The notes under the pieces are model-generated. The model saw only the letters and a list, made by a program, of their open reading frames with translations, made no database searches and was not told the origin of the DNA. Of a stretch of DNA of 64,000 nucleotides, positions 24,733 to 64,000 are shown one piece after another (position 1 is the stretch's first letter; every line of letters begins with the position of its first letter). The translations under genes and the position numbers were made by a program. The stretch is from Rhodospirillaceae bacterium MC!. Lineage in GTDB: Bacteria; Pseudomonadota; Alphaproteobacteria; MC1. The DNA lies in NCBI GenBank assembly GCA_002632265.1, contig NQOV01000005.1:246-64245 (forward strand), read 5' to 3'.

Positions 24733-25119
24733 AGAGAATGGATAAGTTAGCCACTATGCACTTCTTAAAGGTGCATAGTGGCTATCCATAAAAGCTTATA
24801 AAAGCTCGGAAAATTAGTCAATATGTGCCTTTAAGAAGTACGACGTGTATAACCTTAATACATTAGTACTTCTTAAAGGTGCATAGTGGCTATCCGTACA
24901 AGCTTATAAAAGCTCGGAAAATTAGTCAATATGTGCCTTTAAGAAGTACGACGTGTATAATCAACTACATTAGTACTTCTTAAAGGTGCATAGTGGCTAT
25001 CCATAAAAGCTTATAAAAGCTCGGAAAATTAGTCAATATGTACCTTTAAGAAGTACGACGTGTATAACCAACTACATTAGTACTTCTTAAAGGTGCATAG
25101 TGGCTAATTTTCCGAGCTT
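24733..25119. repeat. Array C of nested palindromic elements (three tandem units)
   Basis: Three tandem units of 107-108 bp (right arms starting at 24761, 24869, 24976, 25083, so four right arms). Each holds TTAGTCAATATGTGCC..GAAGTAC, apical TGTA/TACA, bulge ACTACATTAG and GTACTTCTTAAAGGTGCATA. Only the copy touching the asmA-like stop (25120) has fully matching outer arms (AAAAGCTCGGAAAATTAG with CTAATTTTCCGAGCTTTT). It would act as a giant terminator for the minus-strand gene. The rest of the 571-bp gap holds the operon promoter near 24650. Confidence 0.85.
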
Positions 25120-32133: not shown

Positions 32134-32457
32134 CCCCTAAGGATCGGAGAAAAACACTCAATAGGTGTCTTTAGGCGGTTCGTACATGTATATGTACTAC
32201 CTTAGAACTGTCTAAAGGCACATAGTGAGTGTTTTTTACCCCTAAGGATCGGAGAAAAACGCTCAATAGGTGTCTTTAGGCGGTTCGTACATGTATATGT
32301 ACTACCTTAGAACTGTCTAAAGGCACATAGTGGGTGTTTTTTACCCCTAAGGATCGGAGAAAAACACTCAATAGGTGTCTTTAGGCAGTTCGTACATGTA
32401 TATGTACTACCTTAGAACTGTCTAAAGGCACATAGTGGGTGTTTTTATCCGATCCTA
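32134..32457. repeat. Array D of nested palindromic elements (three 105-bp units)
   Basis: Three tandem units starting at 32134, 32239 and 32344, nearly identical. Each has arm ATCGGAGAAAAACACTCA, the CTTTAGGCGGTTC / GAACTGTCTAAAG stem, apical hairpin GTACAT-GTAT-ATGTAC and 3' bulge TACCTTAG. In the last unit the outer right arm (TTTTTATCCGATCCTA) includes the argS stop codon. With the mini-element, minisatellite and palindrome, this accounts for most of the 853-bp argS-SPOR gap; I see no gene in it. Confidence 0.87.
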
Positions 32458-44668: not shown

Positions 44669-45964
44669 TTATTTTTGGGAAGTTTTCTTTTTATCCTGCT
44701 TATGCCAATATATTGCGAAGACACTCACAAGCAATATCAACGCTACACTTATGGCAATTGCCGAGACGGTTTGAAAGTTCGTAGATGAGGCCATACGAGA
44801 TGCGGTATAGCTACCAATAACACCACCTAAAGCACCGAGTAATCCTGATAAAGCTCCTGCACTTCCTTTGAAATTCTTACTCATTGAGAGTAAAAATTGA
44901 TTCATTGGGGCGTTTTGTAAGCCCCTAACAAATAGGCATAGACCCATGGGTATGACCAATCCTAAAGGATAACTACCAAAGAAATACACCCCAATCATAA
45001 ACAATATGGAACAAAAAGGCATGATTAGAATAATGATATTAACTGTTTTACTCACACCGAAACGATGAGACATATATATAGCTCCGTTATTACCTGCTAT
45101 CAATCCTATAAACACGGGCATTTGCCATAGGGAATACTGTTCTGGAGTTTGCCCTAGGTTCATCAATAATACAGGAGCACCCGTGATCCATATCATAAAG
45201 CCAAAACTGGCGATACACCCAACCATTGCATAAGCCATAAAGGTTTTATTTTTTGAAAGCATGATCATCCCACGGAACTTAGATAGTAAAGATGTACCCT
45301 TATGACTATAGGGATTTTTTTCCAACTCTGCTTGTTCTTCTACGCTTAATTTATCATATAACTTAGGATTTTTATAGTATTTACGTGCTAACACATCCTT
45401 ATTGGTTTCTGGCATATATAAAATAATTAGCAACAGAGCAAATAACATTAGAATATTATCATAATAAAAGATATTTCGCCAACTTCCTGTAAATTTTAAG
45501 ATATACGCTCCAATTACTGGTCCAAATAAAGGGGCAAGTAAGGAAACATTCGCAGTATATGACATGGCTTTTACTGCTTCTTTATCTTCATAGAATTCAT
45601 TGATGGCACTAAAACCAGACGCACCAATTACCGCCATTGTTGAGCCTGAAAATATACGAGCAATTAAGAGACCTTTCAAATTACTTGTGAATCCGCAATA
45701 AAAATTTGCGATTAGAAACACTATACCGCATATGATAATGGTTATTTTTCTTCCATATTTATCCGATAAAGGGCCAAGAAAAAGTTGACATCCTAACAAA
45801 CCTACTAAGAACATGGTAACCGCCAGTTCTACCGCTCCTTTATCCGTGTTCATATCACGTGCTATATGGCCCATGGCAGGTAAGAAAGCATCGTTACTTA
45901 AGAATACAGTTCCTGCAAATAAAGCTATGAGCCAATAAAATTTGTCATGTAAAAATTTCTTCAT
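44669..45964 (-). CDS. Bcr/CflA-type MFS drug exporter, copy 1
   Basis: 431 aa, twelve predicted helices. The N-terminal AGTVFLSNDAFLPAM and GPLSDKYGRKITI (the MFS motif A loop) plus GASGFSAINEFYEDKEAVKAM and NISLLAPLFGP-type motif C (here NVSLLAPLFGPVIGAYIL) identify the DHA1 Bcr/CflA family of proton-driven exporters. It is one of three tandem paralogues and the only one whose promoter carries the shared operator-like site. Substrate unknown; could export sugars, antibiotics or other small molecules. Confidence 0.88.
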   Translation of the reverse strand: MKKFLHDKFYWLIALFAGTVFLSNDAFLPAMGHIARDMNTDKGAVELAVTMFLVGLLGCQLFLGPLSDKYGRKITIIICGIVFLIANFYCGFTSNLKGLLIARIFSGSTMAVIGASGFSAINEFYEDKEAVKAMSYTANVSLLAPLFGPVIGAYILKFTGSWRNIFYYDNILMLFALLLIILYMPETNKDVLARKYYKNPKLYDKLSVEEQAELEKNPYSHKGTSLLSKFRGMIMLSKNKTFMAYAMVGCIASFGFMIWITGAPVLLMNLGQTPEQYSLWQMPVFIGLIAGNNGAIYMSHRFGVSKTVNIIILIMPFCSILFMIGVYFFGSYPLGLVIPMGLCLFVRGLQNAPMNQFLLSMSKNFKGSAGALSGLLGALGGVIGSYTASRMASSTNFQTVSAIAISVALILLVSVFAIYWHKQDKKKTSQK

Positions 45965-46004
45965 AATTCATACCTTATCTTGTATAAATGGTTTATTTAA
46001 ATAT

Positions 46005-46078
46005 ATTATATGCAATTCTCTTGAGTTTGTCAACAGATTAAAGAAGAATCGCAAATATAATTTTTGCTTTCGCAAATT
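46005..46078 (-). promoter_or_regulatory. MFS copy 1 promoter with operator-like site
   Basis: Minus strand TTGACA (46028-46033), 17 bp, TATAAT (46005-46010): perfect consensus. Inverted repeats GCAAA..TTTGC..GCAAA at 46050-46078 match the deoR-promoter site at 25 of 29 positions, with paired changes that keep symmetry. Confidence 0.7.
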
Positions 46079-46105
46079 TTTTTATGGGTGGGGAGAGTGG
46101 ATATA

Positions 46106-47401
46106 TTAAGGGTTCATATTACGATCTCTTTCATAGTCTTTACGATGCCAATATCTTGCAAGAATCCCAACAAACAAAACCAAAGCCACACTAATCGCAA
46201 CTACTGATATGGTTTGAAAGTTCGTAGCTGACGCCATGCGAGATGCGGTAAAACTACCAAGAACGCTACCTAAACCGCCGAATAATCCTGATAAAGCTCC
46301 AGCACTTCCTTTGAAGTTCTTACTCATTGAGAGTAAGAATTGATTCATGGGGGCATTTTGTAAGCCACTAAAGAGTAAATATATTGTCATGGGTACAACC
46401 ATTCCTAAAGGATAACTACCATAAAACCATGCTCCAATCATAAACAATATGGAACAAAAAGGCATGATTAAGGTAATGATATTAACGGTTTTACCAACGC
46501 CAAAACGTTGAGCCATATACATAGCTCCGTTGTTGCCGACCATAACTCCTATAAAAACAGGGAATTGCCATAGGGAATATTCTTCTGGCGTTTGCCCTAA
46601 ATTCATCAATAAAACAGGCGATCCTGTGATCCATATGAGCCAGCCAAAACTAATAATACAACCGATCATTGAATAAGCCATAAAAGTCCTGTTCTTTGAT
46701 AACATAACCATGCCACGGAATTTCATCAGTAAAGATTCGCCCTTATGGGGATTTTTTTCTAACTCTGATTGTTCTTCTGTGCTTAATTTATCATATAACT
46801 TAGGATTTTTCTGATATTTACGTGCTAACACATCCCTATTGGTTTCTGGCATATATAATAGAATTAATAACATAACAACCAACATCAAAATATTATCATA
46901 ATAAAAGATATTTCGCCAATTTCCTGTAAACTTCAAGATATAAGCTCCAATGGCAGGACCAAATAAGGGAGCGAGTAAGGAAATGTTGGCGGTGTATGAC
47001 ATGGCTTTTACCGCTTCTTTTTCTTCGTAAAATTCATTTATGGCACTATAGCCAGAGGCCCCAATTACCGCCATTGTTGAACCTGAAAAGATACGAGCAA
47101 TTAGTAAGCCTGTTAAACTGCTTGTATATCCACAATAAAAATTCGAAACTAAAAACATTAAACCACATGCTAAAATGGTGGTTTTTCTTCCGTATTTATC
47201 TGATAGGGGTCCCATAAAAAGCTGAAAAATTAACGCACCTGCTTCAAACATAGTAACCGCCAATTCTACAGATCCTTTATAAATGCCCATATCACGTGCT
47301 ATAGTATCCATAGCAGGCAAAAAAGTATCGTTACTTAAAAATACAGTCCCTGCAAAAAAAGCTATTAAAAGATAAAATTTATTATGTAAAAAATTCTTCA
47401 T
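46106..47401 (-). CDS. Bcr/CflA-type MFS drug exporter, copy 2
   Basis: 431 aa, twelve helices, closely similar over its full length to copies 1 and 3 (shared blocks GPLSDKYGRKTTI, RIFSGSTMAVIGASGYSAINEFYEEKEAVKAM, LRNIFYYDN-like region, QNAPMNQFLLSMSKNFKGSAGALSGL). The C-terminus is ERDRNMNP. No clear -35/-10 pair lies upstream; palindromic array H fills that gap, so it may be read from copy 3 or from a weak promoter. Function is assigned only at family level. Confidence 0.87.
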   Translation of the reverse strand: MKNFLHNKFYLLIAFFAGTVFLSNDTFLPAMDTIARDMGIYKGSVELAVTMFEAGALIFQLFMGPLSDKYGRKTTILACGLMFLVSNFYCGYTSSLTGLLIARIFSGSTMAVIGASGYSAINEFYEEKEAVKAMSYTANISLLAPLFGPAIGAYILKFTGNWRNIFYYDNILMLVVMLLILLYMPETNRDVLARKYQKNPKLYDKLSTEEQSELEKNPHKGESLLMKFRGMVMLSKNRTFMAYSMIGCIISFGWLIWITGSPVLLMNLGQTPEEYSLWQFPVFIGVMVGNNGAMYMAQRFGVGKTVNIITLIMPFCSILFMIGAWFYGSYPLGMVVPMTIYLLFSGLQNAPMNQFLLSMSKNFKGSAGALSGLFGGLGSVLGSFTASRMASATNFQTISVVAISVALVLFVGILARYWHRKDYERDRNMNP

Positions 47402-47449
47402 AATTTAACTCCCACACATTTTTTCTTAGGATGATATTTATTATTCAAG

Positions 47450-47729
47450 CCCCCACTTAAAACCGCCGAATGAGTGCTTTTTCCTGCTCCACAACCCAAG
47501 GGGTGGGAAAAAGTGCTTAGTCAGTGTCCTTAAGTGGGGCGACGTGTACTTACACGCCTACATAAGCCCCGCTTAAGAACGCTGAATGAGTGCTTTTTCC
47601 TGCTCCACAACCCAAGGGGTGGGAAAAAGTGCTTAGTCAGCGTTCTTAAGTGGGGCGACGTGTACTTACACGCCTACATAAGCCCCGCTTAAGGACGCTG
47701 AATGAGTGCTTTTTCACATCCCGCCCCTT
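47450..47729. repeat. Array H of nested palindromic elements (2.5 units of 116 bp)
   Basis: Two full units (starting 47500 and 47616) plus the right half of another (from 47450). Arms GGTGGGAAAAAGTGCTTAGT and ATGAGTGCTTTTTCCTGCTC; inner stem TTAAGTGGGGC / GCCCCGCTTAA; apical hairpin CGTGTA-CT-TACACG; 3' bulge CCTACATAAG. It ends at the stop codon of MFS copy 3 (47730). Confidence 0.88.
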
Positions 47730-49031
47730 TTAGGATTCTGTTTGGGAGTTAAGCTGTTGCTCATTATCTTTGCGACGCCAATATCTTGCTAAGATACCAA
47801 CGAATAAGATTAAGGCTACACTAATGGAAATTGCTGATACTGTTTGCAAATTCGTAGATGAGGCCATTAGAGATGCGGTATAACTTCCGATTACGCTACC
47901 TAAACCTGCGATCAATCCTGATAAAGCTCCTGCACTTCCTTTGAAATTATTGCTCATTGAGAGTAGGAATTGATTAATTGGAGCATTTTGTAAGCCTCTG
48001 AATATTAGATATATGGTCATGGGTATTACTAAGCCTAAGGGACTGTTACTGAAGAAATATACTCCTATCATAAACAATATGGAACAAAAAGGCACGGTTA
48101 GAGTTATGAAATTCACTGTTTTATCTACACCGAAACGTTGGGACATATATATCGCTCCGTTATTTCCTGCGATCAAGCCGATAAACACGGGAAATTGCCA
48201 TAGGGAATATTGCTCTGGTGTTTGCCCTAGATTCATTAATAGCACTGGCGATCCTGTGATCCATATCATAAAGCCAAAGCTGGCGATACAACCAACCATT
48301 GAATACGCCATAAAGGTCCTATTTTTTGATAACATAATCATACCACGAAACTTGGCTAGTAAAGATGTACCATGATTGGAATTATTTTCCAACTCTGCTC
48401 GCTCTTCGATAGTTAATTTATTATATAATTTAGGATTTTTCTGATATTTACGCATTATCACATCCTTATTAGTTTCTGGCATGTATAAAATAATTAGTAA
48501 CATGACAAATAACATTGCAATATTATCGTAATAGAAGATATTTCGCCAATTTCCTGTAAATTTCAAGATGTATGCTCCAATTACTGGCCCGAATAAGGGA
48601 GCAAGTAAGGAAATGTTTGCAGCGTATGACATGGCTTTTACTGCTTCTTTATCTTCATAGAATTCATTTATGGCACTAAAACCAGACGCACCAATTACCG
48701 CCATTGTTGAGCCTGAAAATACACGAGCTATTAGTAAACCTGTTAAATTGCTTGTGTATCCACAGTAAAAATTCGAAATTAAAAACACTACGCCACATGC
48801 TATAATGGTTGTTTTTCTTCCGTATTTATCTGATAAGGGACCCATAAAAAGCTGAAGTACTAAAGATCCTGTTACAAATAAGGTTACTGCCAATTCTATC
48901 GAGCCTTTATCTGTGTGCATATCAGTTGCTATAATATCCATAGCGGGTAAAAAAGCATCATTACTTAGAAATACAGTTCCTGCAAATATGGCTATTAGCC
49001 AATAAAAATTATTATGTAAAAACTTTTTCAT
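47730..49031 (-). CDS. Bcr/CflA-type MFS drug exporter, copy 3
   Basis: 433 aa, first gene of the tandem trio in transcription order. The same family blocks are present (SNDAFLPAMDIIATDMHTD, GPLSDKYGRKTTI, GASGFSAINEFYEDKEAVKAMSYAAN). The extra C-terminal tail ends in SQTES. It has its own promoter (49066-49094). All three copies keep intact frames and core motifs, so none is an obvious pseudogene. Confidence 0.88.
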   Translation of the reverse strand: MKKFLHNNFYWLIAIFAGTVFLSNDAFLPAMDIIATDMHTDKGSIELAVTLFVTGSLVLQLFMGPLSDKYGRKTTIIACGVVFLISNFYCGYTSNLTGLLIARVFSGSTMAVIGASGFSAINEFYEDKEAVKAMSYAANISLLAPLFGPVIGAYILKFTGNWRNIFYYDNIAMLFVMLLIILYMPETNKDVIMRKYQKNPKLYNKLTIEERAELENNSNHGTSLLAKFRGMIMLSKNRTFMAYSMVGCIASFGFMIWITGSPVLLMNLGQTPEQYSLWQFPVFIGLIAGNNGAIYMSQRFGVDKTVNFITLTVPFCSILFMIGVYFFSNSPLGLVIPMTIYLIFRGLQNAPINQFLLSMSNNFKGSAGALSGLIAGLGSVIGSYTASLMASSTNLQTVSAISISVALILFVGILARYWRRKDNEQQLNSQTES

Positions 49032-54321: not shown

Positions 54322-56805
54322 ATGTCAATAATAAAATATAATTTTTCTGCTGGATTTGCAAACACGGTAGATGATACTTATGAATTAATTTTTAAAGCTA
54401 GTGAGGGGTTAGTTTTTGATGGTATAATCCTAAAAGAAACCGCCGAACACTTTGCCAATACTAAGCCCGCAAGTTTGGAAATAATAAATGAAGTAGTATT
54501 TCTTGAACTTGATGAATTGGACAATATGTCAGATGAAACAGGCGTTTCATGTTGGATTCTTCCAAAAACTACAACCATAAACGAAAAAACCGTCAAAGCC
54601 CTTTGCGTTCATATTAAAGGACAAAAACCAGGTTTATCTTTAGACGCCATCAAAAATAGTTCTGCTTTTCAAGAAGTACTATGTAAAGCCGATTCGGAAG
54701 CTGAAGTTAAAAAATATATCAATCACAATATTGATACTTTCATTGTTGACGGTGTTGTCTCTGATAATACAGGAATCGAAGAAACTACAGTGGACGGCTT
54801 TAGCTATGCAGCCTTTACAGTAGTGGGCGATCCTAACGGTTTACACGCACGTCCAGCGGCGGCCTTAACTAAGGTGGCTCACGAATTTTCATGCGATTTA
54901 ACATTGGTGGTAAATAGTACACAGTTCGACGCCGCAAGCGTTGGGGCATTAATGGGGAGTGGCGTATCAGGTGGCACTAAAGTTATTCTAGCTGCTAAAG
55001 GCGATTCTGCCGAAGAAGCTGTAAAAAAAGCAGTTGAGATCGTAGCCAAAACTCCTGAAAGCGTTAAGAAAGCTAAAAAATCTAACATAGCATTGCCAAC
55101 TTTTAAACCGTCTGTAAATGCCTTAGAAGGTGTTCCTGCCTCTCCTGGTGTGGGGATAGCTCCTGCTTATATTATCGAGAAAGAACAAGATCTTACATTT
55201 AGTCCAGATAAATCTAAACTACCACCTGCCGAAGAAGCTCAAAGAATCGTTGACGCTCTAGCTAAAGTTACTAAAGCCTTAGAAGAAACCGTTGCTCATC
55301 AAAAAGCAGAAGGCAACTCTGCTGCGGTTGATGTGTTCTCGGCACACATTACCTTGGTTAATGATACAGAATTAGTAGATCAGCTAAAATCTGCCACATC
55401 TCAAGGGGATACAGCAGAAAACATCGTCTTAACAGTCTTTAAAAATAAAGCTGATACCATGGCAAAAATGGATAATCAGTACATGGCAGAAAGAGCCGCC
55501 GATTATCATGATTTGCGTACTAAAGTCTTTAAAACCCTAATCGGCGAAGAGGCTACCGCATCAGGCTGGCCGGACGGTAATTTCATCATTGTTACCGATG
55601 ATTTAACTCCAACCCAAACCGCATCTTTACCTAAAGGGCGTGTTTCTGGGATCATCACATCGGACGGCGGACCCACTGCTCACTCGGCTATTTTAGCCCG
55701 TGCTTTGGGGATTCCTGCGATCGTTGGTGTGGGTAAACATTTAAGCGTTATTAAAAATAATGATGAAGTTGTAGTCAACGGAATCAGCGGATTTGCCGAA
55801 TATCAATTGACTCCAGAAATCAGAAAAGAAGTTACTAGCGTTCAAGAGAAAATTCAAAAGATCGCAGAAAAACAAGATCAAGCGAAATTTGAAGAGGCCG
55901 TAACCATTGACGGTCATAAGATCGAAATTGGAGCAAATGCGGCCACTCTTGATGATGTAGTCCAATCCGTAAACAACGGAGCGGAAAGCATTGGCTTGTT
56001 GCGTACCGAATTAGTATTCCAAAATCATCAAGAATTACCTACCGAAGATGAGCAAGTGCGTGTATTTACAGAAATCGCTGGCCCATTAAAAGGCAAACCT
56101 GCCATTGTTCGTATGTTTGATATTGGTGCTGATAAACCTGTGCCATTCTTGGATCAAGCAGAAGAAGAGAATCCTTTCTTAGGTGTGCGTGGTGTTCGTT
56201 TGGTTGCAGAGTATCCAGAATTGATTAGAACTCAAGCAGCATCTATTTTACGTACAGTAAAAGAAACAGGCATGCAAGCTAAGATCATGATTCCTATGGT
56301 TTCACGCATTGAAGAAATCGAAACTCTAAAAGACATAATCGAAGAAGAACGTGTTCGCCTAGACGCTCCTAAAGTTCCAGTAGGTATCATGGTAGAAGTA
56401 CCAGCCGCTGCAGTAATGATCGATATCATCGCTCCGTTTGTGGATTTCTTCTCTATTGGTACAAACGATTTAACTCAATATACCATGGCCGTAGATCGCC
56501 AACATCCAGTACTCGCAAAAACTGCCGACGCTTTAGACCCTGCCGTATTACGTATGATCGATATTACCGTAAAAGGTGCTCATCGTTATAAAAAATGGGT
56601 TGGCGTTTGCGGTAACATGGCCGCCGATCCTTTAAACGCCAAAGTATTAACCGCCTTAGGTGTTGACGAATTATCAATGGGTGCAGCGAGTATCCCTGCC
56701 ATTAAAGCCGCAATTCGCACATTCAGCTTTAAAGAACTTCGTGTCCTAGGACAAAAAGCCATCAAATGCCGTAACCCCGAAGAAGTAAGAAAATTATTCC
56801 AATAA
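54322..56805 (+). CDS. Multidomain PTS protein: degenerate EIIA–HPr–Enzyme I
   Basis: 827 aa, the length and order of the alphaproteobacterial FruB-type multiphosphoryl transfer protein. Residues ~1-145 resemble a fructose-type EIIA but lack the phosphorylated His (the GIAIPHA position reads GVSCWILPK). HPr (about 163-250) has its active His175 in NGLHARPAA. Enzyme I (about 270-827) has His454 in GGPTAHSAI, the PEP-binding RTELVFQ and a Cys near 763 in GVCGNMAADP. So PEP-to-HPr transfer should work but the fused EIIA probably does not. No EIIB/EIIC genes are in the window, so it may serve regulation or distant permeases. Confidence 0.85.
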   Translation: MSIIKYNFSAGFANTVDDTYELIFKASEGLVFDGIILKETAEHFANTKPASLEIINEVVFLELDELDNMSDETGVSCWILPKTTTINEKTVKALCVHIKGQKPGLSLDAIKNSSAFQEVLCKADSEAEVKKYINHNIDTFIVDGVVSDNTGIEETTVDGFSYAAFTVVGDPNGLHARPAAALTKVAHEFSCDLTLVVNSTQFDAASVGALMGSGVSGGTKVILAAKGDSAEEAVKKAVEIVAKTPESVKKAKKSNIALPTFKPSVNALEGVPASPGVGIAPAYIIEKEQDLTFSPDKSKLPPAEEAQRIVDALAKVTKALEETVAHQKAEGNSAAVDVFSAHITLVNDTELVDQLKSATSQGDTAENIVLTVFKNKADTMAKMDNQYMAERAADYHDLRTKVFKTLIGEEATASGWPDGNFIIVTDDLTPTQTASLPKGRVSGIITSDGGPTAHSAILARALGIPAIVGVGKHLSVIKNNDEVVVNGISGFAEYQLTPEIRKEVTSVQEKIQKIAEKQDQAKFEEAVTIDGHKIEIGANAATLDDVVQSVNNGAESIGLLRTELVFQNHQELPTEDEQVRVFTEIAGPLKGKPAIVRMFDIGADKPVPFLDQAEEENPFLGVRGVRLVAEYPELIRTQAASILRTVKETGMQAKIMIPMVSRIEEIETLKDIIEEERVRLDAPKVPVGIMVEVPAAAVMIDIIAPFVDFFSIGTNDLTQYTMAVDRQHPVLAKTADALDPAVLRMIDITVKGAHRYKKWVGVCGNMAADPLNAKVLTALGVDELSMGAASIPAIKAAIRTFSFKELRVLGQKAIKCRNPEEVRKLFQ

Positions 56806-56829: not shown

Positions 56830-56869
56830 AAAGCTTGTACATAAATTTATGTACAAGCTTTAGTTTTTT
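56830..56869 (+). terminator. Terminator of the PTS gene
   Basis: A perfect 32-nt palindrome AAAGCTTGTACATAAA + its complement (56830-56861), followed by AGTTTTTT. Confidence 0.88.
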
Positions 56870-56882
56870 CCTGCCCCATAGC

Positions 56883-57343
56883 CCCAAGGAGTGGGAAAAA
56901 GTGCTTAGTCAACGTTTTTAAGCGGGGCGTGGTGTATTATACACCACTACATAAGCCTCGCTTAAGGGCGTTGAATGAGTGCTTTTTTCCTGCCCCATAG
57001 CCCTAAGGAGTGGGAAAAAGTGCTTAGTCAACGTTCTTAAGCGGGGCGTGGTGTATATACCACTACATAAGCCTCGCTTAAAGACGCATAATGAATGCTT
57101 TTTCCTGCTCCATAACCCAAGGAGTGGGAAAAAGTGCTTAGTCAACGTTCTTAAGTGGGGCGTGGTGTATATACCACTACATAAGCCTCGCTTAAAGACG
57201 CATAATGAATGCTTTTTCCTGCTCCACAGCCCAAGGAGTGGGAAAAAGTGCTTAGTCAACGTTCTTAAGTGAGGCGTGGTGTATACACCACTACATAAGC
57301 CTCGCTTAAGGGCGTTGAATGAGTGCTTTTTCCCGCTCCTTTA
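56883..57343. repeat. Array I of nested palindromic elements (four tandem units)
   Basis: Units start at 56888, 57007, 57121 and 57235 (periods 119, 114, 114). Arms AGTGGGAAAAAGTGCTTAGT and ATGAGTGCTTTTTCC; inner stem TTAAGCGGGGC/GCCTCGCTTAA; apical hairpin GTGGTGTAT-ATACCAC, with a longer version GTGGTGTATTATACACCAC in unit 1; 3' bulge TACATAAG. The last unit overlaps the purH stop. Apparent ORFs across it on both strands follow the repeat and are not genes. Confidence 0.88.
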
Positions 57344-58924
57344 GTGTAAAAAGGCACGAATGCGAGTTAGTAACATGTTGCAGTTGTATTCGTTGGCTTT
57401 TTCGATTACTTCGGGGTCTCGGATTGATCCGCCGGGTTGGATGAAGGATGTTACGCCTTCTTTGGCTAGGACTTCTAAGCCATCAGCGAAAGGGAAGAAG
57501 GCGTCGGATGCACATACGGAGTCTGTGGTGTCGAAGCCTGATTCTTTGGCTTTGTTTATGGCGATTTTTGCACTGTCTAATCGGCTCATTTGCCCCGCTC
57601 CTACGCCGATAACTTGTTGGTTTTTCACTAAGACAATGGCGTTAGATTTCACTACAGAGCAGACTTTCCACGCAAATTTTAAATCTGCCAATTGTTTTTG
57701 ATTGGGCGAGGCTTTTGTGGCTTGTTCGAGATTATCGTCATCTAAGATGTGTGATTCTTTTTCTTGGATTAAGTATCCGCCGTTTACTGATTTAATATCT
57801 ATTCTATTTTTATTATGAGAAGAATCATCTGTTGCCCATTCCAATAGACGGAGATTCTTTTTAGTTGTTAAGATCTCTAGCACTTCATCGCTAAATTTTG
57901 GAGCGATGATCACTTCAACAAACTTGCTTTTTAAGAATTTCGCACATTCCAAATCTAGCGTATTATTAAAGGCGATAATACTACCAAAAGCCGAGACGCT
58001 ATCCCCTGCCCACGCTTTTTCTAACGCTTGGAAACTATTATCAGCTGTGGCCACACCGCACGGATTCGCATGCTTGATGATTACACAACTATGATCTTCT
58101 AACTTGCTTACTAATCCGTGGGCCGAGTTGGCGTCGGCGATGTTATTGTATGAAAGTTTCTTGCCGTTTAACTGCTTAGCAAGGGCGATTCCTGTGAGAT
58201 CTTTACGGTCTTCCACATAAAAACCAGCTTTTTGATGTGGATTCTCGCCATAATTCATATCTTGATGGGCAAATAGCTTTAAAGAAATGCTATCAACGAT
58301 GATTTTTTCTGGACCTTGTTCATGATTAGCTCCTAACTGCTCACTAAACCACTTAGTGATAAGAGCGTCATAGGCTGATACGTGCTTAAAAGCCTCATAA
58401 GCTAGAAATTGCCTAAATTCGAAAGTGGTAGATCCGTCATTTTCATCCATTTCATTGATCAACTCTTGATAATCGTCAGGATCGGTTAGAACTGTGGAAA
58501 ACTTGTGATTTTTCGCCGTAGCTCTGATCATGGTTGGACCGCCGATGTCAATATTTTCGATACATGTGGCGTAGTCGTCTGTTTTAGCGATGGTTTCAGC
58601 AAATGGATAAAGATTACAAACCACTAAATTAATAGGATTAATTCCATTTTTTTCTAGATCTTGCATATCTTGATCATTATCCAAGCGAGCAAGAATCCCC
58701 CCTTGGATTTTAGGATGAAGAGTTTTAACTCGTCCAGCAAGAAATTCCGCCATTTTTGTATAATCAGATACATAAATAACAGGGAAACCAGCGTCTTCTA
58801 TGAATTTTGCTGTGCCACCTGTGGAAATTATAGCTACTTTGTTCTTATTCAGAACTTCAACTAGCTCAAGCAAGCCTGTTTTATCGGATACTGATATTAA
58901 AGCAGTTGTTATTTTCTCTAACAT
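57341..58924 (-). CDS. purH: Bifunctional AICAR transformylase / IMP cyclohydrolase
   Basis: 527 aa, catalysing the last two steps to IMP. The N-terminal IMP cyclohydrolase domain (ALISVSDKTGLLELVEVL, STGGTAKFIEDAG, GGPTMIRATAKNH) is followed by the AICAR transformylase domain with MNYGENPHQKAGF, IIKHANPCGVA (catalytic Lys-His) and QPGGSIRD. Complete. A good Shine-Dalgarno (AGGAG) precedes the start. It is divergent from purL across a 383-bp gap that contains the purL riboswitch on the other strand; I see no riboswitch on the purH side. Confidence 0.96.
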   Translation of the reverse strand: MLEKITTALISVSDKTGLLELVEVLNKNKVAIISTGGTAKFIEDAGFPVIYVSDYTKMAEFLAGRVKTLHPKIQGGILARLDNDQDMQDLEKNGINPINLVVCNLYPFAETIAKTDDYATCIENIDIGGPTMIRATAKNHKFSTVLTDPDDYQELINEMDENDGSTTFEFRQFLAYEAFKHVSAYDALITKWFSEQLGANHEQGPEKIIVDSISLKLFAHQDMNYGENPHQKAGFYVEDRKDLTGIALAKQLNGKKLSYNNIADANSAHGLVSKLEDHSCVIIKHANPCGVATADNSFQALEKAWAGDSVSAFGSIIAFNNTLDLECAKFLKSKFVEVIIAPKFSDEVLEILTTKKNLRLLEWATDDSSHNKNRIDIKSVNGGYLIQEKESHILDDDNLEQATKASPNQKQLADLKFAWKVCSVVKSNAIVLVKNQQVIGVGAGQMSRLDSAKIAINKAKESGFDTTDSVCASDAFFPFADGLEVLAKEGVTSFIQPGGSIRDPEVIEKANEYNCNMLLTRIRAFLH

Positions 58925-59020: not shown

Positions 59021-59049
59021 TTGACAAAGGTCTAGAAATCCACTAGGAT
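59021..59049 (+). promoter_or_regulatory. Promoter driving the purine riboswitch leader
   Basis: TTGACA, 17 bp, TAGGAT; transcription would begin near 59056, just at the 5' edge of the aptamer. Confidence 0.65.
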
Positions 59050-59057
59050 ATAACAGT

Positions 59058-59126
59058 ATTCTATATATGTTTGTAATATGGTCAAGCGTTTCTACTACTA
59101 TCCGTAAATTAGTAACTATAGATGTA
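59058..59126 (+). ncRNA. Purine riboswitch aptamer (guanine type)
   Basis: Matches the purine riboswitch three-way junction. P1 TCTA/TAGA (A/T-rich and short), P2 GTTTG/CAAGC enclosing loop L2 with ATATGG, invariant junction GTTTCTAC, P3 ACTA/TAGT enclosing L3 with CCGTAAA, then junction AACTA. L2 and L3 are the loop-loop kissing partners and are exact. The C in AACTA is the specificity base (C for guanine/hypoxanthine, U for adenine). It sits about 180 nt upstream of purL in the same direction and is followed by two terminator hairpins, consistent with an off-switch for purL-purE-purC. Confidence 0.88.
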
Positions 59127-59199
59127 AAAATTTATATGAAAATGATATATTAATTTTCTGTATGTTTTTAGTCTTTTGTGATTCGCAAGAACTTAAATG

Positions 59200-59237
59200 A
59201 ACATGTACGTACTTAAGATACTATATGTTATTTTTTT
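59200..59237 (+). terminator. Riboswitch expression platform, first terminator candidate
   Basis: AACATGTA / TATATGTT (one G·U pair) with a 14-nt loop, then ATTTTTTT. Its 3' arm region (CTATA) could instead pair with the aptamer's P1 strand TATAG, giving an antiterminator. Confidence 0.55.
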
Positions 59238-59253
59238 GGCATATATACTCCGA

Positions 59254-59288
59254 ATGTTTACTCATACTTAAACATGATTTTTTATTTT
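59254..59288 (+). terminator. Riboswitch expression platform, second terminator candidate
   Basis: ATGTTTA-CTCATACT-TAAACAT, perfect 7-bp stem, followed by GATTTTTTATTTT, 20 bp before the purL start. Confidence 0.65.
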
Positions 59289-59307
59289 AATCACAAAGAG
59301 TTATTAT

Positions 59308-62300
59308 ATGTTTATTAGATTGTTTGTAGAAAAAAAAGACAATTTTAACGTTAAAGCAATTCAGTTGCAAACGGAATTTAAAAACTACTTAAATCTAGAT
59401 ATTAAAAATCTAAGAATCATAAATTGCTATGAAATATATTTGGAAAATTTCAAATTATCCAAGGATTTAATATACAACATATTCGCAGATATCCAACAGG
59501 ATGATTACTTTTTCGATCTTCATACTAGCATAGATCAAAACACGCAAAGCATTATAGCAAGCCAGTATCTGGACGGTCAGTTCGATCAGCAATCAGCCTC
59601 GGCCATTGAGTTATGGAATCTCCAAGATGAAATTGATGAGAAGTACAAGAATCCTCTAATTAAATTTTCTTCTATCATCGTATTTGATAAGCAAGAACAA
59701 AAAACAATTGATAAAATCAAAAATTACTACATTAATGAAGTAGAAAGTAAAGAAAAAATCTTTAGTGATGTTATTGAAACACCTGCAAATCAGATAAAAG
59801 AAAATCTTGCCATAGGCGGATTCATTGATCTTGATCATGGGAAACTAACAGAATTATTAAACACTTACTCCCTAGCTATGGATATCAAAGATCTTGAAAT
59901 TATTCAAGAATACTTCAAAAACGAACAAAAACGAGATCCCTTTGAAGTCGAATTAAAAATGCTTGATACCTACTGGTCTGATCATTGCCGACACACAACT
60001 TTTAGTACTATCATCAATAATGTAAGCTTTCCCAAAAATCAAGATACATATGGGAAATACTGGGATTATTACCTAGATATCAGAAACAAATTAAAGCAAA
60101 ATCACAAACCAATTACCCTAATGAATATGGCTACCATTGGCTCTAAATACGTTAAAAGCAAAGGCGGATTAAAAAATTGGTTTGTAACTAACGAGATCAA
60201 CGCTTGTACCATAAAAACCAAGATAAAAATCAAAGGTCAAAGCAAGGCGAAAGATTGGCTAATTGCTTTCAAAAATGAAACTCACAATCATCCTACAGAA
60301 ATCGAACCATTTGGCGGAGCAGGTACTTGCTTAGGCGGAGCGATTCGTGATATCCTTTCAAGCCGTGCTTTTACCTATCAAGCTGTGAGATTATCAGGTG
60401 CGAGTGCTGATCTAAGCCCTGTAATTGAAAGCAAACTCTTACAACATCAGATCATTTATAAATCGGCGTTGGGATACTCTTCATATGGTAATCAGATCGG
60501 TCTATCCACATCTCAAGTTCATGAATTTTATCATAGTGGATATGTGGCGAAAAGAATGGAATTAGGTGCGGTATTGGGGAGCTGTCCCCTTGATAGTTTG
60601 AATTTCCAAGAACCAGACAAGGGCGATCTTGTGATTCTCATTGGTGGCGACACAGGAAGAGACGGAATCGGCGGTGCTACAGGCTCATCAAAAAATCACG
60701 ATCATAAATCAGTTGAAACAAGTAGTGCCGAAGTGCAAAAGGGTAATCCCACAGAAGAAAGAAAAATCCAACGTTTATTTAAGAATCCTGATTTCATTAA
60801 GCTAATCAAAAAATGTAACGATATGGGAGCTGGCGGTATTAGTGTAGCCATTGGCGAAATTAGTAACGGTGTCGATATCCATTTGGAACGTGTGCCATTA
60901 AAATATAAGAATCTTAGCGGTATGGAGATCGCTCTTTCGGAATCTCAAGAACGTATGGCCATAGTAATCAACAAGCAAGATTTAAATGCAGTCATAGAAT
61001 TCGCTCATGATGAGAATCTTAAGGCGACAAATGTGGCTACGATCACAAATAATGGCTTTTTAAATATGTTCTATCATCAAGAGCAAATTGTAAATTTATC
61101 TTACGATTTCATCAATACCAACGGGGCTACCTTTAATACTGATATCGAATTCGTAGCACATAAACCATGTGAAGATAATCAAGCAATTACTAAGATCCAA
61201 GATATCTTAACAAACCCCAAATATACCGCCAAAAATCCCACAGATATCCAAGCAACTTGGCAACAGATAATGAGTGATATCAACGTATCTTCACAAATCC
61301 CCTTAATGGAAATGTTCGATAGTATGGTCGGTGCAAATACTCTTTTAATCCCCCATGGCGGAAAGTATCAGCTAAGCGAAGAAGATGCGAGTATTCATAA
61401 AATCAATGTCCCAGAATGTGAAAATGCCAGTGCCATAGCTTGGGGATTTAATCCTTATTTAGCCGAAAGCTCGCCCTTACATGGTAGTCAATTCGCCTTA
61501 GTGGATTCCATTTTGAAACTCGTTTCCAGTGGCGTTAAAAGAGATGATATTTATCTCTCTTTACAAGAATATTTTGCGAAAACATCCATAAGTAATCCGC
61601 AAAGCTGGTCCCAACCAACCTTAAGTATGTTGGGTGCTTTATACGTCCAAGCGGAATTAAACATTGGGGCTATCGGCGGTAAGGATTCCATGAGTGGTAC
61701 ATTCAACAATATCAATGTACCGCCCACATTGGTTTCATTTGCCTTTGCCTCTATGGAAAATAAAGATGTGCTTTCATCTACCATAAATAAGCCGAAAAAT
61801 CAAGACTTTGAGTATATTTATTTACTAAAAACCCCCTTAAATGCCGATCTTACTCCTAATTTAGATGAAGTTAGCAAGAATATGGATCTTGTAAGTAATT
61901 TAATACAAAAACAATCTCTTAGTGCGTCAAAAGTAGTTGGCACATTCGGAATTGCCGAAACCATCGCCAAAATGTCTTTCGGTAACTTGGTGGGATCGCA
62001 ACTGGACATTAGTCATAAGGAATTATTTGAACCTAACCAATCTTCAATGATTTTAGTAGCTAAAAGCAATCTAGCTGATATCACATCATCAGATAACTTA
62101 AAACTTATCGGCAAAACCACCAATGATTCTACCATTCAGATAGAAAATCAAAGCATAAATATCCTAGATCTTGTAACCAGCTGGCAAGCGGGATCAGTGG
62201 TCAAAAGTGAAGATACTACCCAAATAATTGGCGAAGAACAAACAAAAAAACTAACTCATATGCTAGCAGATAAGAAAAATAATCAGCAAGCAAATTCTAA

Positions 62301-63192
62301 CTCTAACTCTAACCAGAATAACAAGAGTAATATGAAGTCTCTTAATATCTTAGAAAGTAAACCTAAGGTGTTACTGCCCATATTTGTAGGGACAAACTGC
62401 GAATATGAAAGCTCGTATGCCTTTGAAAAACATGGAGCAAATGTCAATTCATTTATTTTCAAAACCCAAACACAAGCCGATATTACTCAATCCTTAGAAT
62501 ACTTTGCCAAAGAGTTAGAAACAGCAAACATCCTAATGTTATCGGGCGGATTCTCGTATTCTGATGAACCAAACGGTGCAGGCAGATACATGGCGAATGT
62601 GCTTTCCAACAAAATGGTGGCTAAAAAAATAGATGACTTTCTAGCTAAAGATAATCTTATCTTAGGCATATGTAACGGTTTCCAAGCTCTGATAAAAGCA
62701 GGACTTTTAGGACACACTCAAGAAAATACTAACTTTTCTAGAACGAGCGGACAAGCTACACTTTGTTATAATACCAACAATCGCCACATTGCCAAAATCA
62801 CTAAAACGCAAATCATTTCAAATACTTCCCCATGGCTTAGCAATATGGAAATCGGCGACGAACATTATATTCCCATATCCCACGGCGAAGGGCGTTTGGT
62901 TGCCAGTGATGAGCTAGTGGAAGATCTCTACAAGAATAATCAGATTGTAGCTTGTTATTCCTCTTCAGATGAGAGCCATATCTCACAGGCTAAAAATACC
63001 GCCCATGCACATATGCAAGCCTTTAATAATCCCAACGGATCAAGCTATAATATCGAAGCATTATCAAGTAAAGATGGAAAAATTCTAGGTAAAATGGCTC
63101 ATAGTGAGCGAGTCGGAGATAGTTTATACAAGAATTTCCCCAATTCTGTAGAACAAAACATTTTCATTAATGGTATTAATTATTTCAAATAA
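59308..63192 (+). CDS. purL: Phosphoribosylformylglycinamidine synthase, single-chain (PurL)
   Basis: 1294 aa single chain with synthetase and glutaminase fused. The N-terminus (MFIRLFVEKKDNFNVKAIQL, then GQFDQQSASA) resembles the clostridial/streptococcal second clade, not the ~740-aa PurL plus PurQ and PurS that alphaproteobacteria normally use. Synthetase motifs: MLDTYWSDHCRHTTF, FKNETHNHPTEIEPFGGAGT, GGDTGRDGIGGATGSS. A Gln/Asn/Ser-rich linker near residues 985-1010 precedes the glutaminase (nucleophile Cys in LGICNGFQ; ISHGEGR supplies the His). All active-site blocks look intact. Led by a purine riboswitch; probably acquired by transfer. Confidence 0.93.
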   Translation: MFIRLFVEKKDNFNVKAIQLQTEFKNYLNLDIKNLRIINCYEIYLENFKLSKDLIYNIFADIQQDDYFFDLHTSIDQNTQSIIASQYLDGQFDQQSASAIELWNLQDEIDEKYKNPLIKFSSIIVFDKQEQKTIDKIKNYYINEVESKEKIFSDVIETPANQIKENLAIGGFIDLDHGKLTELLNTYSLAMDIKDLEIIQEYFKNEQKRDPFEVELKMLDTYWSDHCRHTTFSTIINNVSFPKNQDTYGKYWDYYLDIRNKLKQNHKPITLMNMATIGSKYVKSKGGLKNWFVTNEINACTIKTKIKIKGQSKAKDWLIAFKNETHNHPTEIEPFGGAGTCLGGAIRDILSSRAFTYQAVRLSGASADLSPVIESKLLQHQIIYKSALGYSSYGNQIGLSTSQVHEFYHSGYVAKRMELGAVLGSCPLDSLNFQEPDKGDLVILIGGDTGRDGIGGATGSSKNHDHKSVETSSAEVQKGNPTEERKIQRLFKNPDFIKLIKKCNDMGAGGISVAIGEISNGVDIHLERVPLKYKNLSGMEIALSESQERMAIVINKQDLNAVIEFAHDENLKATNVATITNNGFLNMFYHQEQIVNLSYDFINTNGATFNTDIEFVAHKPCEDNQAITKIQDILTNPKYTAKNPTDIQATWQQIMSDINVSSQIPLMEMFDSMVGANTLLIPHGGKYQLSEEDASIHKINVPECENASAIAWGFNPYLAESSPLHGSQFALVDSILKLVSSGVKRDDIYLSLQEYFAKTSISNPQSWSQPTLSMLGALYVQAELNIGAIGGKDSMSGTFNNINVPPTLVSFAFASMENKDVLSSTINKPKNQDFEYIYLLKTPLNADLTPNLDEVSKNMDLVSNLIQKQSLSASKVVGTFGIAETIAKMSFGNLVGSQLDISHKELFEPNQSSMILVAKSNLADITSSDNLKLIGKTTNDSTIQIENQSINILDLVTSWQAGSVVKSEDTTQIIGEEQTKKLTHMLADKKNNQQANSNSNSNQNNKSNMKSLNILESKPKVLLPIFVGTNCEYESSYAFEKHGANVNSFIFKTQTQADITQSLEYFAKELETANILMLSGGFSYSDEPNGAGRYMANVLSNKMVAKKIDDFLAKDNLILGICNGFQALIKAGLLGHTQENTNFSRTSGQATLCYNTNNRHIAKITKTQIISNTSPWLSNMEIGDEHYIPISHGEGRLVASDELVEDLYKNNQIVACYSSSDESHISQAKNTAHAHMQAFNNPNGSSYNIEALSSKDGKILGKMAHSERVGDSLYKNFPNSVEQNIFINGINYFK

Positions 63193-63210: not shown

Positions 63211-63681
63211 ATGCAAGTTGCTATAATTGTTGGTAGTCATTCGGATAAAGATAAAATTACCCCTGCAATCAACACTCTAAAAAAATTCAATGTGGATTAT
63301 GAATGTTATGTAATTTCCGCTCATAGAGCGTTGAACTTACTAACATCAACCATTCACGAACTAGAAGAAAAAAATTGTCAAGTGATCATTGCTGGAGCTG
63401 GTCTAGCGGCTCATTTACCTGGTGTTATCGCTAGTCATACGATTATCCCTGTGGTTGGCGTGCCTGTAAATGTTAATCTTATGGGTCTGGACGCTTTACT
63501 TTCAATCGTCCAAATGCCTAAGGATATCCCAGTGGCTACCGTAGGTATAGATAACGCAAGCAACGGAGCATTACTCGCTTTACAGATCATCGCTTTAAAT
63601 GACAAGGAATTATCAAGCAAACTAAAAGAATTTAGAAAGAATCTACCTGCAGATAAAAATTATCAAAAAGTAGATTGGTAA
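63211..63681 (+). CDS. purE: N5-carboxyaminoimidazole ribonucleotide mutase
   Basis: 156 aa. The substrate loop is VGSHSDKD, followed by VISAHRAL (catalytic His), GAGLAAHLPGVIASHT and GVPVNVNLMGLDALLSIVQMP. These match the class I PurE family, which rearranges N5-CAIR to CAIR. RBS AAAGGAGA. It starts 18 bp after purL in the same operon. No purK is seen in the window; it may lie beyond. Confidence 0.94.
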   Translation: MQVAIIVGSHSDKDKITPAINTLKKFNVDYECYVISAHRALNLLTSTIHELEEKNCQVIIAGAGLAAHLPGVIASHTIIPVVGVPVNVNLMGLDALLSIVQMPKDIPVATVGIDNASNGALLALQIIALNDKELSSKLKEFRKNLPADKNYQKVDW

Positions 63682-63743: not shown

Positions 63744-64000
63744 ATGACAACTCCAACAAAAGCACAACAATTATACGAAGGCAAAGCCAAAACCGTATTC
63801 GCAACTAGCAATGACGATAATGTAATTATCTACTATAAGGATGACGCTACCGCAGGCAACGGAGCGAAACACAGTGTTATCGATGAAAAAGGAATCCTAA
63901 ATAATGATATCACAACCATTATCTTCCAAAAACTTCACGAACACAAAATTAAAACTCACTTCATCGAAAAACTAAACGAACGTGAACAACTTTGTGAAAA
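63744..64000 (+). CDS. purC: SAICAR synthetase (PurC), truncated by the window end
   Basis: The first 85 or so codons of an ORF starting ATGACAACTCC and running off the window. The N-terminus QQLYEGKAKTVFAT, followed by IIYYKDDATAGNGAKHSVIDEKG and LLNNDITT-type sequence (here ILNNDITTIIF), is diagnostic of PurC, which joins aspartate to CAIR. RBS AAGGAATC. Third gene of the riboswitch-led operon. Confidence 0.92.
   Translation, partial: MTTPTKAQQLYEGKAKTVFATSNDDNVIIYYKDDATAGNGAKHSVIDEKGILNNDITTIIFQKLHEHKIKTHFIEKLNEREQLCE

Follow-up and report, generated by a model that had tools for sequence, protein, structure and literature searches.

A guanine-type purine riboswitch upstream of a probably imported purine operon in the alphaproteobacterium Rhodospirillaceae bacterium MC!

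How would an alphaproteobacterium come to carry a guanine-type purine riboswitch in front of its purine biosynthesis genes, and by what mechanism might the element act there? The question is raised by a 64,000-nt stretch of Rhodospirillaceae bacterium MC! (contig NQOV01000005.1, positions 246 to 64,245; hereafter, the window), in which the leader of purL matches the Rfam family Purine (RF00167) at 59041-59138 on the forward strand. Purine riboswitches are confined to few groups, and their sporadic proteobacterial occurrences have been ascribed to possible horizontal transfer (PMC2258182, PMC3766115). We consider it about 80% probable that the element is a guanine riboswitch exerting OFF control through two downstream hairpins, T1 and T2, and that it was acquired together with the operon behind it, which replaced the native purine genes except purH.

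A cmsearch with RF00167, named beforehand as the check on a sequence-only reading that had proposed a guanine-type purine riboswitch here, returned 58.6 bits against a gathering cut-off of 37, spanning the entire model (1-102/102) with E = 1.6e-7 (64 kb searched against all 4227 Rfam families). This is the sole Rfam match within the window and the sole RF00167 match across the 2.05-Mb genome. The aptamer core (59060-59122, forward strand) has the expected three-way junction: paired region P1 (59060-59065/59117-59122) has 6 bp with a single G-C pair, the joining segment J1/2 (59066-59068) is UAU in place of the consensus UAA, P2 (59069-59073/59083-59087) has a U-U beneath its loop L2 (59075-59081, AAUAUGG), J2/3 (59088-59095) is GUUUCUAC, and P3 (59096-59100/59110-59114), likewise with a U-U beneath the loop, carries L3 (59102-59108, CCGUAAA). 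The conserved junction bases U22 (59066), U51 (59093) and C74 (59116), named as ligand-contacting positions in PMC9295807, are all present, with C74 as the specificity base of the guanine type. The GG/CC bases that would join L2 to L3 (G59080 and G59081 with C59102 and C59103) are recognizable by sequence only. Position 24 is U in place of the consensus A, a substitution not unique to MC!, since the same U is seen in C74-type matches from another Pseudomonadota genus (L153, L154).

Alignment of the window element with two Ilyobacter copies and those of Fusobacterium and Acetoanaerobium shows 97.5% of the cells in P1, P2 and P3 to be paired, and 12 of 16 helix pairs are altered on both sides relative to these four sequences, i.e. 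in a compensatory manner. None of 500 shuffles reached the observed values, and slid structures paired at 30-46%. This covariation and the RF00167 anatomy confirm the ATATGG, J2/3 and CCGTAAA motifs and the P2 and P3 stems that had been picked out from the sequence. P1 is indeed short and A/T-rich, as had been noticed, from which unusual binding need not follow because the aligned 6-bp core is common to the window element and its relatives. That an AU-rich sequence should have matched a small RNA model by chance is next to negligible, considering the score, the single match in the genome, the location exactly upstream of a purine operon and the covariation with relatives preceding the same gene. 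Judged by full-length match and pocket bases, the element is a genuine guanine-type purine riboswitch and an ordinary member of its class.

With known guanine-type RF00167 riboswitches the MC! element shares the full-length match, the three-way junction, the J2/3 segment, the loop-loop GG/CC bases, C74 and a downstream purine biosynthesis operon; it differs from them in its alphaproteobacterial host, in U rather than A at position 24, in the 6-bp A/T-rich P1 and in a platform built of A/T-rich hairpins. The Guanine-II, xanthine-II and 2'-deoxyguanosine variant classes, reported from Firmicutes only (PMC9295807), have the junction scaffold in common with it, whereas the MC! element retains the guanine-type pocket bases.

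The host is what sets this riboswitch apart. Among 385 alphaproteobacterial genomes RF00167 gave two matches, with MC! alone above the cut-off, and full-text literature searches (in which few subscription journals were covered) found no alphaproteobacterial purine riboswitch reported; the earlier remark that the class has no established example thus holds within this scope. A set of 398 Pseudomonadota genomes yielded 11 positives: MC!, nine genomes from a single genus and one from a further genus. Of the elements inspected, two carry T at position 74, which is the adenine type. The riboswitches of genus g361, tentatively Vibrio-like, are likewise above the cut-off and some combine C74 with U24 (the L153 and L154 matches above), but they belong to a different clade from MC!, and the two T74 elements are theirs.

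A purine-riboswitch-like element scoring below the cut-off (35.7 bits versus 37) lies in genome G284, from another alphaproteobacterial family (contig C6 30548-30644; L040 6644-6548, reverse strand). Its junction bases are intact and its L3 deviates, it stands immediately ahead of a gene resembling guanine deaminase (TIGR02967, 345 bits versus a cut-off of 375), and the 11 further genomes from the same order all lack such an element. This may be an independent second instance whose control follows another logic.

Downstream of the MC! aptamer, seven genes on a single strand form the operon purL-purE-purC-purF-purM-purN-purD, with the riboswitch in its 5' leader. The sequence-only reading had placed purL, purE and purC under its control; those genes are there, and the operon runs well past them. 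The first, purL (59308-63192, ATG at 59308), encodes a single-chain clostridial-type phosphoribosylformylglycinamidine (FGAM) synthase of 1294 aa (TIGR01857, 1317 bits versus a cut-off of 1057), and AAAGAG at 59295-59300 is its likely ribosome binding site. It is followed by purE (63211-63681; TIGR01162, 175.7 bits versus 149.6) and by purC (TIGR00081), which starts at 63744 and runs beyond the window end at 64000; purF, purM, purN and purD follow on the same strand (L002 4989-10209; TIGR01134, TIGR00878, TIGR00639 and TIGR00877, respectively). The divergent purH (57341-58924, reverse strand; NF002049, TIGR00355) is outside riboswitch control. A search of the MC! genome itself found no purS and no purK above the cut-off, so that the operon seems to serve as the principal route to purines; these absences are likely rather than certain, given that the genome is 95.5% complete.

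Several comparisons point to a foreign origin. The TIGR01857 PurL is above its cut-off in MC! alone among the 385 class genomes, the best of the other 384 reaching 276 bits, and its closest relatives are found in Ilyobacter polytropus (44% aligned identity), Fusobacterium and Clostridia. An RF00167 element stands immediately upstream of purL-E-K-C-F-M-N-H-D in Ilyobacter (67.1 bits) and upstream of purL-E-C-F-M-N-H-D in Fusobacterium vincentii (52.7 bits). The resemblance is close in I. polytropus (L034), in which the riboswitch lies directly before purL, the gene order is the same and P2 is shortened as in MC!, with the U-U beneath its loop; its operon contains purK and purH, both missing from that of MC!. 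A second Ilyobacter purine riboswitch (L034 6695-6792, 60.9 bits) precedes a formate--tetrahydrofolate ligase gene beside the pur operon. With copies from Fusobacteriota and Clostridium PurC shares 62-64% identity, versus at most 52% with class copies, and its tree places it as sister to Ilyobacter and Fusobacterium (support 93/86). PurD groups with Fusobacteriota and Clostridium (100/99), and its grouping with alphaproteobacteria is rejected (approximately unbiased test, p = 0.003). By contrast with PurC, PurH is up to 51% identical to class copies versus 41-44% to Fusobacteriota, and attaches near the alphaproteobacterial side of its tree, its exact position being unsure. For PurE, PurF, PurM and PurN the comparison covered donor-side sequences alone; the donor sample consisted of two records from Fusobacteriota, a few other plasmid records and 80 loci, most of them clostridial or from Bacteroidales. 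No genome closer to MC! than class level came out of the search for relatives, and a first scan of the collection with PurL as the sole query gave no matches.

Two of the trees speak less clearly and count against the proposed import: for PurC, the test does not reject a placement among alphaproteobacteria (p = 0.20), and PurL sits on a long branch whose place is not settled. For PurL, a clade with Fusobacteriota and Brachyspira is compatible with the test (p = 0.245). Even so, the class-unique RF00167 and TIGR01857 matches, the same riboswitch and gene order in Ilyobacter and Fusobacterium, the PurC and PurD groupings and the lack of native purS and purK make it most likely that riboswitch and operon arrived together by horizontal transfer, the donor being a relative of Fusobacteriota or Clostridia. 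What sequence comparison shows is the aptamer, the gene order and that PurL, PurC and PurD have foreign affinities; the route of transfer we infer. The simplest history suggested by gene order and trees would be that the riboswitch was imported with purL-E-C-F-M-N-D, that the native counterparts were lost and that the native purH was kept.

Foreign-looking genes lying between flanking repeat arrays (described below) might instead reflect an error of binning or assembly, with Firmicute or Fusobacterium DNA placed in an alphaproteobacterial bin. We regard this as highly improbable. The assembly (19 contigs) has 0.04% contamination, and the same 289-kb contig bears ATP12 (119 bits versus 27), found among 14 named control genomes only in Caulobacter, which supports an alphaproteobacterial host and disfavours a contaminant contig; the class assignment is supported by ATP12 and by the general look of the genes. 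Moreover, the adjoining purH is closer to alphaproteobacterial copies, neither a native purS nor a purK above the cut-off was found elsewhere in the genome, and identity between the proteins and any known donor is only about 40%. This last value also indicates that the transfer was not recent.

How the riboswitch might act was considered with ViennaRNA ensembles, from which pairing probabilities were taken for free and aptamer-held transcripts of stepped 3' ends. A putative promoter, TTGACA-17 nt-TAGGAT (59021-59049, forward strand; 10/12 matches in a consensus scan), lies where the sequence-only reading had seen one, just before the aptamer, and from it a transcript start near 59055 is expected; such matches are not above chance in the region, with 5 observed versus 4.7 expected. 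An upstream hairpin at 59045-59062 was tried as a competitor of P1 and dropped, because it starts within the putative -10 and would not be fully transcribed. In a short transcript ending at 59130 P1 reaches a probability of 0.84, so that the aptamer is predicted to form readily unaided, and in longer transcripts a hairpin beginning near 59120 competes for the P1 3' strand. The candidate terminators on the forward strand are T1 (59200-59237; arms 59200-59207/59222-59229, then a T-run, T7) and T2 (59254-59288; arms 59254-59260/59269-59275, then GATTTTTTATTTT, the T-run being T6). Within the aptamer, TATATGTT (59064-59071, forward strand) is identical to the T1 3' arm 59222-59229, and both are able to pair with 59200-59207, which makes the former a putative antiterminator strand. 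For unbound transcripts with 3' ends at 59210-59220 that pairing reaches a probability of 0.97. Once the transcript extends to 59230, the probability of T1 is 0.06 when free versus 0.97 when the aptamer is held, and at 59280-59288 T2 goes from 0.33-0.41 to 0.87-0.90. As complete a pairing with the aptamer is possible for 3.2% of the window 8-mers of equal G+C count and, among 17 terminator-like hairpins in the window, for T1 only.

Binding of guanine or hypoxanthine would then stabilise the three-way junction, and the ligand-bound aptamer would favour T1 and T2, lowering transcription of purL-E-C-F-M-N-D. Without ligand, the P1 3' strand would be recruited into the downstream hairpin, and the freed 59064-59071 would capture the T1 5' arm and allow read-through. 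The aptamer-held ensembles, which favour T1 and T2, fit a transcriptional OFF switch like that of Ilyobacter, and this computed model is the likely mode; ligand, direction of control and terminators are all predicted. Some results weigh on the other side. T1 and T2 are A/T-rich, and the two hairpins with T-runs noticed earlier, although present, fail a terminator scan requiring at least three G-C pairs. The T1 contrast falls to 0.10 free versus 0.19 held once the T-run is included (59238), and the predicted fold of the whole leader does not surpass that of shuffled sequences (z -0.60).

Weak T-run hairpins also speak for translational control, the main rival, with ligand-dependent refolding hiding or exposing the purL ribosome binding site, for example through 59171-59183 pairing with 59289-59299. 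The complementarity of TTTGTGATT and AATCACAAA adjoining that site fits such a scheme, and control at translation is reported to predominate outside Firmicutes (PMC2258182). Yet sequestration of the site, when tried, was not favoured by the ensemble, in which the pairing does not occur with the aptamer present or absent and the A-rich half of the site stays unpaired in both states; AT-rich sequence would yield a repeat of this kind by chance, and Fusobacteria tend toward attenuation (PMC2258182). We therefore deem translational control unlikely, if a serious contender. Feeble terminators and the low folding z-score would equally suit a relic, that is, an aptamer that survived the transfer while its expression platform decayed and ceased to regulate. 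This seems quite unlikely to us: pocket bases, loop-loop bases and three helices were kept despite many compensatory changes, and a core maintained in this way at about 40% protein identity fits continued selection on the aptamer.

Supposing transcriptional OFF control, the platform differs from that of Ilyobacter polytropus, whose leader has a clear, strong G+C-containing terminator with a 5' arm, ACTTTCACT, complementing the P1 3' strand, AGTGAAAGT. We speculate, tentatively and at rather long odds, that the platform was rebuilt after the transfer, with 59064-59071 (comprising the P1 end, J1/2 and the P2 start) serving as switching strand instead of the P1 3' strand and U24 lying within the antiterminator. 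If true, this would be a purine riboswitch that couples ligand binding to termination differently.

Further features lie within the window and just beyond it. Tandem-repeat arrays occur between genes at 24760-25106, 32134-32446, 47451-47715 and 56865-57339, with units of 105-116 bp in 2-4 copies each, the last ending beside purH; a 33-bp unit is repeated about 20 times just past purD (L002 10285-10963, contig C7), so the pur block has repeat arrays on both sides. Three adjacent tandem paralogous transporter-like genes (431-433 aa) occupy 44669-49031 on the reverse strand. At 54322-56805, an 827-aa fusion joins an HPr domain to enzyme I of the phosphotransferase system (PTS), with DhaM-like similarity at residues 164-486 and an N-terminal part of about 160 aa without NCBIfam assignment.

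What is new here is the unusual host, the probable import along with a foreign operon and, perhaps, an expression platform that was rebuilt; the element itself is ordinary. The locus would represent a riboswitch that crossed phyla with a full metabolic operon into a class nearly devoid of such switches, where the native genes are absent and one native-looking gene, purH, adjoins the imported operon. It may thus offer a natural test of the fate of an expression platform once its aptamer enters a distant, A/T-rich host.
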